Positions 5,150 to 22,504 of a DNA stretch of 25,211 nucleotides are shown piece after piece. This DNA comes from a virus. The notes beneath the pieces are model-generated. The model was not told the origin of the DNA, did not search any database, and worked only from the letters and a program-made list of their open reading frames with translations. A program made the translations under genes and the position numbers. Positions within the stretch are counted from its first letter, which is position 1. Each line of letters opens with the position of its first letter. Location of the stretch: positions 1 through 25,211 of IMG/VR virus record IMGVR_UViG_3300037883_000017. The stretch is one strand, 5' to 3'.

Positions 5150-5535
5150 GCGTTGCGTCCGGGCTGTGAATCGAAGTCGGCGCCAAGCGCGAACCGCGTG
5201 TCCGCTTCGCACATCCACACGCCGTTGATCTCGACCATGTCGATCGGATCGTCATGGATCGCGAGCGGGTTGTGCGGCGGCGGCGCCGGGCTCGCGTCGC
5301 CCGCGTCAAATCCGAATGTTGTGCGCCCGACCCCAAAGCGAACGGCGTCCGCTAAAATACGAGGATCGATCGCAGCGCCGCGCATCATCTGATCGCGAAC
5401 GAACGCATCGAATGCCTGGGCAGCGTCGTGCGAGCCGACATAAGACATGCCGGGACGTTGAAAGATCGGATCGCTGAATTTCGTTCCGGCTGGCGGCGCT
5501 TCCCAGCCAAATCCGCCGCGGTTCCTATTTGTCAC
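5146..5535 (-). CDS. Phage protein of the head operon, unknown function
   Basis: 129 aa from GTG 5535, with GGAG about 10 bases upstream. Farther upstream in-frame codons run through the neighbouring gene and encode an Arg/Ala-rich artefact. Features seen: a Gly-rich N-terminus (NRNRGGFGWEAPPAGTKF), a helical middle (DAAQAFDAFVRDQMMRGAAI), then ILADAVRFGVGRTTFGFDAGD. The C-terminal half is acidic and ends near WMCEADTRFALGADFDSQPG. No known family was recognised. The start overlaps the preceding gene by 11 bp. Confidence 0.6.
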   Translation of the reverse strand: MTNRNRGGFGWEAPPAGTKFSDPIFQRPGMSYVGSHDAAQAFDAFVRDQMMRGAAIDPRILADAVRFGVGRTTFGFDAGDASPAPPPHNPLAIHDDPIDMVEINGVWMCEADTRFALGADFDSQPGRNA

Positions 5536-11978: not shown

Positions 11979-12641
11979 CTACGAGGGAAGGCTGAACGCT
12001 TTGCGGAGTATCTGATTCCTTTGTTCGCCGTCAACGGATTGTCGTAGACCATCTGTGAAGGCCGACCATGCGCGCACGCTTACGATCTGATTATCGTGAA
12101 TTTCCTGCCTCTGATCCGGCATTTTCGTGCGCCGCCAGCGGCGTTTTTTCTTATATGCGGCGAATTCCCGAAATGCATCGGCTGGCATCACGAGCGGGCG
12201 CTTGCCATTTTCGACTTTTCGGATTTCGTCGATCGCCTCGTCGGGCAGCATGACGAACCGGGGCGCCCAAGTCTCGGGATCGTGCTGCAGCATCAATCGA
12301 AATACGCCCGGGCAGGCTTCAATGCGCGAGACATGATCCTGAATTCCCCATGTAAATATAAATAGATAGCCCGGAAACATCGGGCGCGTCGCCCTGATCT
12401 TTCGGCCGCGCCTGATTTCGATCTCCTCGGCCTCGGGCACGTAGACGCCAAACCGTCGGCCTGACAAATGACCCGCCGCGATGCGCTCGTGAGCAGGATG
12501 GGTCTCGACGATATACCAGCCCGCGAGTGCCCCAGGTCTCGCCTCGGCGTTAATCGGATTTACGTCGCCATATCCGACGATTGTTCCCTGCTCGAGCGGC
12601 TTATTGAGGGCGCGATAGACTTTTGCGAGATCGCCGGTCAT
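11979..12641 (-). CDS. NusG-like transcription elongation/antitermination factor
   Basis: 220 aa. After a ~40-residue leader comes an NGN domain: GWYIVETHPAHERIAAGHL at ~41-59, FGVYVPEAEEIEIRRGRKI, then PMFPGYLFIF (~88-97) and SRIEACPGVFRLM. The final ~40 residues (DNQIVSVRAWSAFTDGL... VDGEQRNQILRKAF) resemble a degenerate KOW domain. NusG-family proteins bind the RNA polymerase clamp; specialised paralogues such as RfaH suppress termination on chosen operons. It is the last gene of its operon, just before a terminator and the late operon, so it is placed to act there (inference). GGGA precedes ATG 12641. Confidence 0.85.
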   Translation of the reverse strand: MTGDLAKVYRALNKPLEQGTIVGYGDVNPINAEARPGALAGWYIVETHPAHERIAAGHLSGRRFGVYVPEAEEIEIRRGRKIRATRPMFPGYLFIFTWGIQDHVSRIEACPGVFRLMLQHDPETWAPRFVMLPDEAIDEIRKVENGKRPLVMPADAFREFAAYKKKRRWRRTKMPDQRQEIHDNQIVSVRAWSAFTDGLRQSVDGEQRNQILRKAFSLPS

Positions 12642-14960: not shown

Positions 14961-15229
14961 GCGGCCGCCCTTTCGCTTTCGGCCTGCGCATTGATCGACA
15001 CCGCGATCGCCTGGAATTCCGGGCCGCACGCTTCGAACCATTCCGCCAAAATATGCAAGATCAGGCGCCGCGCCTTGGCAACGCTGTCGACCATGCGCAG
15101 CCGATCATTGCCCGGCAGATGCAAGCGATAGCGGGCGCCTTGACGATCCGGATCGATGGCACCGACGACGTGCAGCCCGACCACGACCTGAATGCGTCCC
15201 GATGGCAGGATGACGAATTCGGCGGTCAT
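14957..15229 (-). CDS. Small phage protein, unknown function
   Basis: 90 aa. The N-terminal half is beta-rich (FVILPSGRIQVVVGLHVVGA, RYRLHLPG) and the C-terminal half is helical (VAKARRLILHILAEWFEACG). Both ends overlap neighbours as ATGA, directly behind the ParB/MT-A70 gene. No motif that assigns a function. Confidence 0.6.
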   Translation of the reverse strand: MTAEFVILPSGRIQVVVGLHVVGAIDPDRQGARYRLHLPGNDRLRMVDSVAKARRLILHILAEWFEACGPEFQAIAVSINAQAESERAAA

Positions 15230-16854
15230 GCGGCGGCCTCCTCGGGCGCCCGGCGCCAGAATGGGCAATCCCCGCGGGTATTCTCAGCGCAGGCGCAGCC
15301 CGCACCGCGGCTGCAGCCCCACTCGTCGGCGTCGGTCGGCTCGAGGAAAGTGATCGGCGGCTTATCAATCGGCGCTTGCGCAACCTCTTCGGGCGTCCAT
15401 TGCGGGGCATCGGCGATCGGCTGGCCTCGGCTGTCGACCTTGGCGGCGAAATGATCGAATTTTTGCCAATGCCGCTCAATCGCAGCGTCAAGCGTATTGT
15501 GCCTCCCCGGATCATCCCAGGGCGCCGACCATTTCATTCCGCATTCGCAGGTCGCAATTTCCGTGCAGACGCCGTCAACGACCGGATTCGTCATCGCGAC
15601 GGTATGGCCGACCGGGAACTGCTTGCGCGCCTTGTGCTGGGCGAGGATCGGATCGATCGGCGCCGGCTCGGCCTCATTGCCCCAGGCTGACCAGCCCAGC
15701 CGCGGCGGACCGCGGCGATTTAATTCGATTTTACGCCATGTCGGGAAATACCCTTCGATCATTTCGAGGAAAGCCTCGGGCTTGGCCGAATGCTCGCCGA
15801 GCGCTGCCTCGATCACGCTATCCCATTGCTTACCGGGCGCTGGGCACGGGACCGAGCCCTTGACGCCGATTAAAAGATGCTCGTGCTTGAACCGTGCCCA
15901 CCATCCCGTGATTATGGTCGGCTTTTTCCAGACGTAATTGCTGACATATTTGAAGCCACGCAGTTCCAAAACCTTGATCGCGATCGACAGATGCGGCGCA
16001 GGCGCCCACATCCAAAGGACGCAGTTATCGTCGGCGCAGGCAAAGCGGTCGGCCGTGCGCTTGACGATCTCCTCGGGCGTGTGAGCATCTTCGGCGACCT
16101 CATAATGATTCGCCGCGTGCCGATCGAGGCCGGTCTCGCGGCTGTAAACCTCATAATCCCATTCGAAATCTTCGACGACGACGCCGAATTTGCCCTCGGG
16201 CGCCTTTAGTCCGGTCGTTTTCTCCCGGGCCGCTCGAGTCTCTTGCTTTATGACCGTCCGGATGACATTCGGCTTATTTTCGGCCGCCAGCTCGGCGATC
16301 TTGCGCTGCGTCTCCGCCGGCAGGCTCGAGGCCTGGGCGGCAGCGGACACGCTTAGTCGGCCCTGATCGACCGCGAGCGACAACTCGGGCTGGGCGTTCT
16401 CTTGCACGGCTTTGGCCGAGCGGACGAGCCGCTCGGAAACGCGGAGTTGGCCGGCCGCATCGGCTTGAGTAACCGGCAAATTTGCCGGTTTCTCTGGGTC
16501 GGGCCGCGGCTGGCCTTGCGGCAGATTTGCCAAACGCGCCGCAACCATAGCGCGCTGACTCTCGTTCAAATGACGCCGCTTGAGGTTTTGCGAGATCACA
16601 TAGGCCAGCGGATCGCCGTCGATCTCGGCGAGATATTTGCGGAATAGCGATGGCCGATCCTCGGGCCGCGTGTCGCGCTCGACGAGACCGGCGAACAGCG
16701 CCGCGTTATAGCGGTTGCGGCCGTCGAGGATCATGCCGTCGAGGATGTCGATTTTCTGGCGCAGCCGATTGCGCTTGACATCCTCAAAGAATTCCGAGCG
16801 CTCGTCGCCTTCGAGGAGGGGGAAGATATTCGCGAGCGGATGGAATTCGATCAT
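15226..16854 (-). CDS. ParB-domain/MT-A70 adenine methyltransferase fusion
   Basis: 542 aa in three parts. Residues 1-~100 form a ParB/Srx-like N-domain (IEFHPLANIFPLL, MILDGRNRYNAALFAG at ~41-56, LAYVISQNLKRRHLNESQR). A helix-turn-helix follows (TQADAAGQLRVSERLVRSAK, ~129-148). Residues ~223-395 are an MT-A70 methyltransferase (NCVLWMWAPAPHLSIAIKVL, GEHSAKPEAFLEMIE, LGWSAWGNEAE). The signature expected as DPPW reads DFEW (229-232). The C-terminal ~130 residues hold two Cys groups (CTEIATCECG and CSRGAGCACAENTRGDC). MT-A70 enzymes make N6-methyladenine in DNA or RNA; phages use them to evade restriction or control expression. The start codon now abuts an inserted element. Confidence 0.88.
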   Translation of the reverse strand: MIEFHPLANIFPLLEGDERSEFFEDVKRNRLRQKIDILDGMILDGRNRYNAALFAGLVERDTRPEDRPSLFRKYLAEIDGDPLAYVISQNLKRRHLNESQRAMVAARLANLPQGQPRPDPEKPANLPVTQADAAGQLRVSERLVRSAKAVQENAQPELSLAVDQGRLSVSAAAQASSLPAETQRKIAELAAENKPNVIRTVIKQETRAAREKTTGLKAPEGKFGVVVEDFEWDYEVYSRETGLDRHAANHYEVAEDAHTPEEIVKRTADRFACADDNCVLWMWAPAPHLSIAIKVLELRGFKYVSNYVWKKPTIITGWWARFKHEHLLIGVKGSVPCPAPGKQWDSVIEAALGEHSAKPEAFLEMIEGYFPTWRKIELNRRGPPRLGWSAWGNEAEPAPIDPILAQHKARKQFPVGHTVAMTNPVVDGVCTEIATCECGMKWSAPWDDPGRHNTLDAAIERHWQKFDHFAAKVDSRGQPIADAPQWTPEEVAQAPIDKPPITFLEPTDADEWGCSRGAGCACAENTRGDCPFWRRAPEEAAA

Positions 16855-19945: not shown

Positions 19946-20173
19946 TCACTCCGCGACCGTGTGGCCAGACGGCGGCGAGGGATTCAAACGATTGGAATGA
20001 ACCAAATGCTGACGTTGCCGCCCATCCCTCAAGAGCCCGAGCCGGTCCAGCTTGCCCATCACCGCGCCCCGACTGCATTTGAGCAATTTGGCGATCCGAG
20101 CCCCGGTCAGGCCGCGCCGCCAGAGGCGCCGCAGGCGTTGTGTCCGGTTATGTGTCCAAAATCCGTCTTCCAT
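19946..20173 (-). CDS. GcrA-like DNA-binding protein
   Basis: 75 aa. WTHNRTQRLRRLWRRGLTGA followed by RIAKLLKCSRGAVMGKLDRLGL aligns well with the N-terminal DNA-binding helices of GcrA (pattern W..eR...L..LW..G.s...IA..L....R.AV.GK..RLGL). GcrA is the alphaproteobacterial cell-cycle regulator that works with sigma-70 at CcrM-methylated GANTC promoters. The protein is less than half the length of GcrA (about 170) and lacks the C-terminal polymerase-binding domain. It may therefore bind DNA only, or compete with host GcrA (inference). ATG 20173 is used; a TTG 14 codons upstream is open but unlikely. First gene of its operon. Confidence 0.72.
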   Translation of the reverse strand: MEDGFWTHNRTQRLRRLWRRGLTGARIAKLLKCSRGAVMGKLDRLGLLRDGRQRQHLVHSNRLNPSPPSGHTVAE

Positions 20174-20230
20174 GACGTGAATTTGAGTGATTCGCCGTCC
20201 ATAGGCAAGAGACAACGTGAGTTTTATGTC

Positions 20231-20282
20231 TCATTCTGGATCACGGAATGCCAAACCGGCACGGAAAGTCACACGGGCGCGG
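20231..20282 (+). repeat. Leader-type repeat A, copy 1
   Basis: Starts TCATTCTGGATCACGGAATG and ends with GGCACGGAAAGTCACACGG, identical over 19 bases to copy 2. CATTCT pairs with GGAATG around the loop GGATCAC. This copy lies between two minus-strand genes, upstream of the GcrA-like gene, and is oriented opposite to them, unlike copies 2 and 3. Confidence 0.7.
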
Positions 20283-20296
20283 GCGCTATACCTCAG

Positions 20297-20518
20297 TTAA
20301 CTGGCGTTTGCTTCGTTCGCGGTGTAGAGAAACTTGGCGGCACAGATGCGGCACTGTCGCGGTTTGCGAATAGTGAAATGGTGTCGGCACGAGCATCGCG
20401 GACAGATGACGGTCACTATGCCCCTGCCGCCCCAATTGAAGCCGCCAAAGGTCACTCGGCGCCGACCGTTAACAACCTCGTCGGCTTGTACGTTTAGGGA
20501 ATTGCTCTCTTCGCCCAT
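20297..20518 (-). CDS. Small zinc-ribbon protein
   Basis: 73 aa. The N-terminal ~35 residues are polar; then comes ICPRCSCRHHFTIRKPRQC followed by RICAAKF. This gives Cys 39/42 and 56/59 (plus 44), a two-knuckle zinc ribbon. The rest shows beta strands. GGGA 7 bases before ATG 20518. It lies between the parS palindrome and repeat A copy 1 in the control region. Possibly a small DNA- or protein-binding regulator (inference). Confidence 0.6.
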   Translation of the reverse strand: MGEESNSLNVQADEVVNGRRRVTFGGFNWGGRGIVTVICPRCSCRHHFTIRKPRQCRICAAKFLYTANEANAS

Positions 20519-20566
20519 TTCAATTTCCCGACATTGCAGAAGCCAGTCGCAACGCCGGATTTTGGC

Positions 20567-20586
20567 GTTGTTTCACGTGAAACAAC
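20567..20586. promoter_or_regulatory. parS: parS-type palindrome (ParB binding site)
   Basis: GTTGTTTCACGTGAAACAAC is a perfect 20-bp palindrome. Its inner 16 bases (20569-20584, TGTTTCACGTGAAACA) equal the widely conserved bacterial chromosomal parS consensus bound by ParB. It sits in the 78-bp gap between the repressor gene stop and the next gene. It is not followed by a T-run as a terminator would be. See findings. Confidence 0.88.
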
Positions 20587-20596
20587 GGGAATCGGC

Positions 20597-20807: not shown

Positions 20808-20835
20808 ATCCTAACCTTTCCAGGCTAATTGTCAA
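20808..20835 (-). promoter_or_regulatory. Promoter of the repressor gene (probably leaderless)
   Basis: On the minus strand: -35 TTGACA (20830-20835, perfect), 16-base spacer, -10 TAGGAT (20808-20813). Only seven bases separate the -10 from the ATG at 20800, so transcription would start at or next to the start codon. Confidence 0.7.
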
Positions 20836-20901: not shown

Positions 20902-20932
20902 TTGATCTTAATAGGCAACGGACTATTATCAA
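20902..20932 (+). promoter_or_regulatory. Early plus-strand promoter overlapped by an inverted repeat
   Basis: -35 TTGATC (20902-20907), 16-base spacer, -10 TATTAT (20924-20929), start expected near 20936, 19 bases before the first plus-strand gene. The same bases form arms TTGAT..AATAG (20902-20914, with a 3-base bulge) and CTATTATCAA (20923-20932), so a repressor binding there would cover the promoter. Confidence 0.55.
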
Positions 20933-22443: not shown

Positions 22444-22448
22444 TTGCT

Positions 22449-22504
22449 GGGTCATTCCAGATCACGGGATGACTCGGCGGCACGGAAAGTCACACGGACG
22501 CGGA
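22449..22504 (+). repeat. Leader-type repeat A, copy 2
   Basis: GGGTCATTCCAGATCACGGG at its start, GGCACGGAAAGTCACACGG near its end; 63 bases before the next start codon. TCATTCC pairs with GGGATGA around AGATCAC. It contains GACTC (22471-22475), a GANTC site. TTGCTGGGTCA (22444-22454) is the exact complement of a sequence at 23666-23676. Confidence 0.75.

Follow-up and report, generated by a model that had tools for sequence, protein, structure and literature searches.

The window analyzed here is a record of IMG/VR with a length of 25,211 bases, and it is possibly a fragment of a phage genome. It encodes a portal protein, TerL, a putative TerS and replication-initiation genes, which marks it as phage DNA rather than the origin region of a chromosome. 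An origin as a fragment of a host chromosome was also considered and rejected, as the packaging genes of a phage are present and parAB are absent. A gene for a NusG-like antiterminator is found at 11979-12641 (PF02357, E 8.7e-15). The region of interest is a small gene block with a parS site inside it, and its features are given below.

19946-20215, minus strand: protein with a GcrA-like cell-cycle regulator domain, in the same leftward block (PF07750, E 1.6e-10)
20297-20518, minus strand: 73-aa zinc-ribbon-like protein, the next gene after parS (PF12760, below its cut-off)
20566-20587, no strand: 22-bp perfect palindrome around parS, CGTTGTTTCACGTGAAACAACG
20569-20584, no strand: chromosomal parS consensus of 16 bp, TGTTTCACGTGAAACA, exact match (consensus as in PMC7383237)
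20597-20800, minus strand: 67-aa HTH-like protein, putative repressor of the switch (phrog_57, weak, E 6.6e-5; a relative with 82% identity in record L424)
20808-20835, minus strand: promoter-like TTGACA-16-TAGGAT, directly before the repressor start codon (similar layout in L424)
20902-20929, plus strand: divergent promoter-like TTGATC-16-TATTAT, toward the rightward genes

The parS site is intergenic: the HTH-like gene, whose stop codon is 12 bp away, and the zinc-ribbon-like gene, whose start is about 50 bp off on the other side, leave a gap of 78 bp around it. The match to phrog_57 is the sole family match of the HTH-like protein, and the leftward promoter leaves its gene nearly leaderless. 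The two promoter-like sites stand back to back before this gene, an arrangement that can reasonably be read as a repressor/early-gene switch, and the divergent layout makes it plausible that the gene is the repressor of this switch. A direct repeat of about 50 bp (20231-20278 and 22448-22497) with an exact 20-bp core, CGGCACGGAAAGTCACACGG, flanks the switch region, and the repeat with this core occurs once, in diverged form, in L424 (5038-5088, minus strand). The GcrA-domain gene is reminiscent of the GcrA homologues in PhiCbk-like phages.

The parS site and the chromosomes of the likely host group

The sequence TGTTTCACGTGAAACA is the idealised consensus parS in work on ParB and forms the core of the DNA in the crystal of the ParB DNA-binding domain (PMC7383237). 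In the window it is the sole site with three or fewer mismatches, and shuffled windows have 0.05 such sites on average. By a zero-order model the exact 16-mer is expected 1.6e-6 times in the window, and perfect 22-bp palindromes are expected 0.01 times. A chance match was rejected as the origin of the site on these shuffles, on this expectation and on a reversed control in 61 genomes (given below).

The palindrome reaches 3 bp past the 16-mer at each side, and this excess would suit a 3′ hairpin of the repressor message or the operator of some other phage regulator which merely resembles parS. A 9-bp stem on the leftward transcript, which is followed by a second stem (z -2.5), points in the same direction. 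The stem of an intrinsic terminator is thus present, but the U tract is missing and no terminator was called at the site, and an operator with a free choice of sequence would not match all 16 letters of parS (1.6e-6), so that we hold this explanation to be very unlikely.

The exact 16-mer was found in 36 of 61 Hyphomicrobiales genomes, typically as pairs about 2 kb apart, and the reversed palindrome in none of the 61. In five alphaproteobacterial genomes having related prophage-like loci, all sites with at most one mismatch cluster near the chromosomal parAB. Three chromosomal loci with unusual site spacing, taken as off-origin candidates, are also about 3-4 kb from parAB, and a fourth (G026 contig 105) has no parAB match on its 9-kb contig. 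Thus, on the genome counts, the proximity to parAB and the published consensus, the 16-mer of the window is identical in every letter to the parS on the chromosomes of the likely hosts. That these belong to the Hyphomicrobiales, Caulobacterales or Rhodobacterales is inferred from the genomes in which related prophage genes are found.

The original prediction had described a palindrome at 20567-20586 which holds the full 16-base consensus of a chromosomal-type parS, lies intergenically beside a repressor gene and is very unlikely to be a chance match. The consensus, its chromosomal type and the low probability of chance are all borne out by these results. The palindrome is indeed perfect, although the extent given was slightly short of the 22 bp. 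The intergenic position also stands, whereas the identity of the repressor is plausible and goes with a weak family match.

Partition genes and conservation in related phages

The search for parA and parB which had been proposed with the prediction gave no ParA ATPase (PF13614) in the window, which may be a fragment, or in 12 related records, and all 14 control genomes were positive. A canonical ParB, having ParB_N, HTH and dimer domains, is also absent from the window. Thus neither component of a self-contained ParABS system is encoded in cis, and what the window offers is a cis site matching the ParB site of the host group on an element without ParAB of its own, as is expected when a host ParABS is used. 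With no ParA and no canonical ParB in the window, the obvious candidate binder is the host ParB. The sole ParB-like gene of the window is a fusion with MT-A70, and a second palindrome was found inside it.

15226-16854, minus strand: ParB-like/MT-A70 fusion protein of the phage (ParB-like region phrog_4715, E 9e-10)
16471-16490, no strand: 20-bp in-gene palindrome AACCGGCAAATTTGCCGGTT, perfect, immediately ahead of the codons for the HTH in the ParB-like gene

This protein had been named as a second candidate binder of the parS site, and its ParB-like region and the distance of its gene, about 3.7 kb from parS, are in keeping with that; Pfam ParB_N, on the other side, has no match in the fusion. 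Among 50 representative homologues (from records L344-L423), 24 have a perfect palindrome of at least 14 bp before the HTH codons, as against 1.9 expected from codon-preserving shuffles, and four other regions of the same genes have 0-3 palindromes. The centre is usually AATT or AAATTT and the arms differ between homologues. The residues encoded by the palindrome vary (PANLP, PPIGG, PSIEG), and the constraint is therefore on the DNA (or RNA) and not on the protein. The simplest reading of these sequences is that the in-gene palindrome is a candidate self-site of the ParB-like protein. As the gene family has its own, AATT-centred and different dyad, the protein is an unlikely binder of parS, and parS is nearly absent from its relatives (about 80 records, one of them with a 2-mismatch site). 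The claim is weakened accordingly, and that parS is the site of the phage's own protein is, of all the explanations weighed here, the most improbable.

All 12 records related through DUF2303 lack the exact 16-mer; one 2-mismatch site occurs among them, at a contig edge, and the switch modules of these records are not homologous to that of the window. The nearest relative, L122, has 61-72% identity in several proteins and no detectable homologue of the repressor or of the neighbours of the repressor. A search with the MT-A70 protein alone gave no close relatives. The only record sharing the repressor is L424 (66.5 kb), in which the identity extends over 67 aa. It has the sequence TGTTTCACGTGGAAAA about 450 bp behind the repressor, inside the end of the following ORF; this is the sole site with three or fewer mismatches to parS in the record, and its right half-site is degenerate. 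The comparison is suggestive of a parS counterpart in a shared repressor module. The absence of the palindrome from relatives, which had been put forward as a check on the prediction, is thus answered in two ways: the DUF2303 records speak against conservation, though with non-homologous modules, and the degenerate site 3′ of the repressor in L424 speaks for it. Conservation of parS across this phage family was looked for and not found in the related records. With the exact 16-mer missing in relatives, parS appears to be gained and lost quickly and not to be deeply conserved. In the related phage L133 the sequence GCTTCACGTGAAGC at 5290-5303 has the 10-bp core of parS and adjoins a putative repressor region, and the same record also holds TAAGACAAATTGTCTTA-type repeats.

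An integrase above the cut-off is found in 5 of 13 records of the phage group, which is therefore at least partly temperate. None was seen in the window, and the integrase of L122 falls outside the stretch matching the window. The phage of the window is probably temperate and alphaproteobacterial. When 10 kb of the window were compared with cultured phages at the DNA level, there was no match.

Occurrence of parS in other phages

The exact 16-mer was found in at least 120 IMG/VR stretches, as against 7 and 5 for two control palindromes having the same base composition, one of them also with the same CACGTG core. The 18-mer TTGTTTCACGTGAAACAA, which is the class of the window, was found in at least 119 stretches and is present in 3 of the 120 16-mer loci among the matches listed. 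Taken at face value, a rough estimate from three overlaps gives several thousand contigs of IMG/VR as carriers of parS. Among the matches listed, 51 of 132 sites of the 16-mer are intergenic, as against 12.7 expected, and 39 of 133 in the TTGTTTCACGTGAAACAA set, as against 15.6. A ParB HMM, built from five alphaproteobacterial ParB proteins, matched 1 of the 120 listed loci and a ParA HMM matched none of them; the positive controls worked for both. A single parS core is found in 99 of the 120 listed loci, which are partial. Among the genes beside the sites are those of terminase, portal, head, endolysin and replication families, and these loci are therefore phage sequences and not origin regions. 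Contamination is unlikely to be the main source of parS in IMG/VR, in view of the phage genes in the flanks, the one ParB match in the listed loci and the existence of cultured carriers. Thus chromosomal-type parS is far commoner on phages than the control palindromes and is normally without a ParB gene.

The flanks of phage parS sites are mostly of the A..T class (48, as against 3 of the T..A class) and those of chromosomal sites vary; the site of the window has the rarer T..A flanks. Most of the phage sites seen are not beside repressors; many are found in structural regions, before terL or close to the ends of the genome. About 18 loci of the terL clade phrog_38 have an exact parS at a distance of 33-151 bp before the terL start (these include L007, L019, L027, L029, L042, L083, L088, L093, L097, L101, L111, L119, L120, L199, L209 and L217). 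These loci had been selected for carrying parS, and in a comparison free of this bias the site is absent upstream of terL in four cultured terL relatives with 55-64% identity, so that the statement is limited to recurrence within the closer clade; a general conservation of parS at this place was rejected on the same four relatives. Phage HTVC027P has a 1-mismatch site about 4 kb from terL.

A 30-mer of the window matched 340 of 50,697 cultured phage records and its reversed letters matched 25, with counts that are inflated by redundancy, as 90 of the 340 records are Listeria phages. Plasmid records gave 31 matches, several of them chromosome-sized, in a database three times larger. Ten cultured or complete phage records proved to have exact parS, and others have a variant of it. 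Roseobacter phage DSS3P8 has three exact sites, Gordonia phage Woes has two, and Arthrobacter phage Emotion has two exact sites and seven at two or fewer mismatches. Exact sites are also found in Listeria, Microbacterium and Rhodococcus phages, in the phi29-like Bacillus phage B103, in Vibrio phage phi 3 and in microvirus CA82. A faecal inovirus of 5.8 kb (PQ006148.1) has five exact sites, at 713, 1186, 2773, 4109 and 5765, and no match of the reversed control over the whole record. The variant TGTTCCACGTGGAACA, which is the Pseudomonas type of parS, occurs in Pseudomonas phages, in a Xenohaliotis phage (three copies) and in others; its presence in the Pseudomonas phages agrees with a matching of the site to the host. 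The ParB_N domain was found in one of six phages checked. Enterobacterial phages are absent from the 120 matches listed of the cultured set, and E. coli is without a ParB homologue (PMC5815017).

In phi 3, SYP, DSS3P8, Woes and Emotion several parS sites are no more than a few kb from an end of the record. Such end-clustered sites were noted in Vibrio phage phi 3 (Demerecviridae, NC_028895.1), where they are in the terminal repeats, and in Pseudomonas phage vB_PpS_SYP (OQ183418.1). Perhaps a site near an end sits in the DNA which enters the cell first.

Phages regarded as virulent also carry parS (Listeria Pecentumvirus, phi29-like and T5-like phages), and partition in lysogens therefore cannot be its sole use. 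It may be asked whether the phage copies act as decoys, which would titrate ParB and ParB-loaded SMC away from the host origin and block segregation and division during lytic growth. Such a takeover role fits phages without a lysogenic cycle and would agree with the multi-copy clusters seen in several phages, with the sites near genome ends in DSS3P8, phi 3 and SYP, and with the disturbance of division and segregation, dependent on position, by extra parS in Caulobacter (PMC5815017). One site on one genome would, however, titrate little, and most of the listed, partial loci have a single core; we consider this role improbable as the general explanation.

Possible role of the phage parS site

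The original prediction had suggested that the phage may recruit host ParB to be segregated like a plasmid, to be positioned in the cell or to silence its switch region, and this reading is partly supported, by the genuine parS and by its frequency on phages. The palindrome is very probably a genuine loading site for host ParB which is under selection. The best explanation of it, which we favour by somewhat more than an even judgement, is that the phage recruits host ParB by its parS and couples extrachromosomal phage DNA to the host ParABS. Host ParB dimers would nucleate on the phage parS, close as CTP-dependent clamps and slide about 1-2 kb to either side, by which the phage genome would be linked to the ParA/ParB segregation and pole-anchoring machinery of the host. 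The linked genome may be incoming DNA, a deferred infection or an episomal prophage, and it would be positioned and passed to the daughter cells without parA or parB of its own. In Caulobacter, ParB spreads up to about 2 kb from one site and connects to ParA and to MipZ/PopZ at the pole, and ectopic or extra parS disturbs division and segregation according to its position and can cut fitness (PMC5815017). This cost of extra chromosomal parS, along with the many-copy inovirus, favours a use in positioning and inheritance of extrachromosomal DNA. The five copies of the inovirus fit with episomal maintenance, and if the phage of the window integrates, its ectopic parS could, by analogy with Caulobacter (PMC5815017), harm the host. 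Whether positioning and segregation are the main benefit is in our judgement evenly balanced; the binding of ParB in vivo, this role and the identity of the host are all inferred.

The leading alternative is that parS is a cis-element of the lysogeny switch, where ParB clamps or a ParB roadblock would lower transcription of the repressor block and from the divergent promoters, and the decision would be tied to the level of host ParB or to the stage of the cell cycle. The site follows the putative repressor closely and is separated from the two promoters by about 220-360 bp, a distance within the ~2 kb of ParB spreading in Caulobacter (PMC5815017). This speaks for the alternative, as does the degenerate site in the repressor module of L424. 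The GcrA-like gene in the same block suggests a tuning to the cell cycle, and KorB, a plasmid protein of ParB type, can silence over a distance (PMC11790492). The phage sites observed elsewhere are mostly away from repressors, though, and phages without a lysogenic cycle carry parS too, so that as the main role this is rather unlikely; it is possible that such control coexists with a role in positioning.

The recruitment of host ParB for positioning and inheritance may be compared with known systems. Phage-plasmids such as P1, N15 and those of the mycobacterial RedRock type encode ParA and ParB with private centromeres. They, too, rely on a phage-borne centromere to be inherited stably outside the chromosome, whereas the window has neither ParA nor ParB and has, instead, the letter-perfect site of the host. 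In phi29, host Spo0J (ParB) is involved in the entrapment of phage DNA in spores (Meijer et al. 2005, as cited in PMC9437464). This is the case of a phage without partition genes which places its genome via the host chromosomal ParB, as is proposed here, and its relative B103 is one of the exact carriers above; phi29 is, however, virulent and its case concerns sporulation in a Firmicute, while the phage of the window is probably of the temperate, alphaproteobacterial kind and has one site in a switch region. The element SGI1 carries parS-like sites captured from IncC plasmids and exploits the IncC ParAB for its stability (PMC10954446); here also a mobile element has only the centromere and another replicon supplies ParAB, but the system is that of a plasmid, with two sites and the helper protein Sci, and not the ParABS of a host chromosome. 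A mobile element bearing the centromere of another replicon is thus of a kind already known from phi29 and SGI1. In alphaproteobacterial phages, CtrA-mediated deferment of lysis has been described and some of these phages encode GcrA homologues (PMC9437464). Sites for host cell-cycle proteins in phage control regions are common to both cases, and the host factor in the phage of the window would be the segregation protein ParB and not CtrA. Full-text literature searches of partial coverage, in which absence is weak evidence, gave no earlier case of an alphaproteobacterial phage with a chromosomal parS in its switch region, and no study surveying phages for such sites.

Judged from their sequences, numerous phages that are unrelated to one another have the parS of the host but no segregation system, and so they probably borrow that of the host. 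We tentatively propose, with a confidence falling a little below an even judgement, that parS without parAB is a widespread, convergent and host-matched strategy of tailed phages, inoviruses and microviruses, the site often being close to a key operon or to the end of the genome. By this strategy the genomes would enter the ParB/SMC system as surrogate chromosomes, and in the phage of the window it may also tie the lysogeny switch to host ParB. This suggests that phages may routinely join the segregation of host chromosomes by a 16-bp passport and not by a partition operon. If true, it would bear on the persistence, positioning and inheritance of extrachromosomal phage genomes, and on why the ParB systems of hosts may face pressure from phages.
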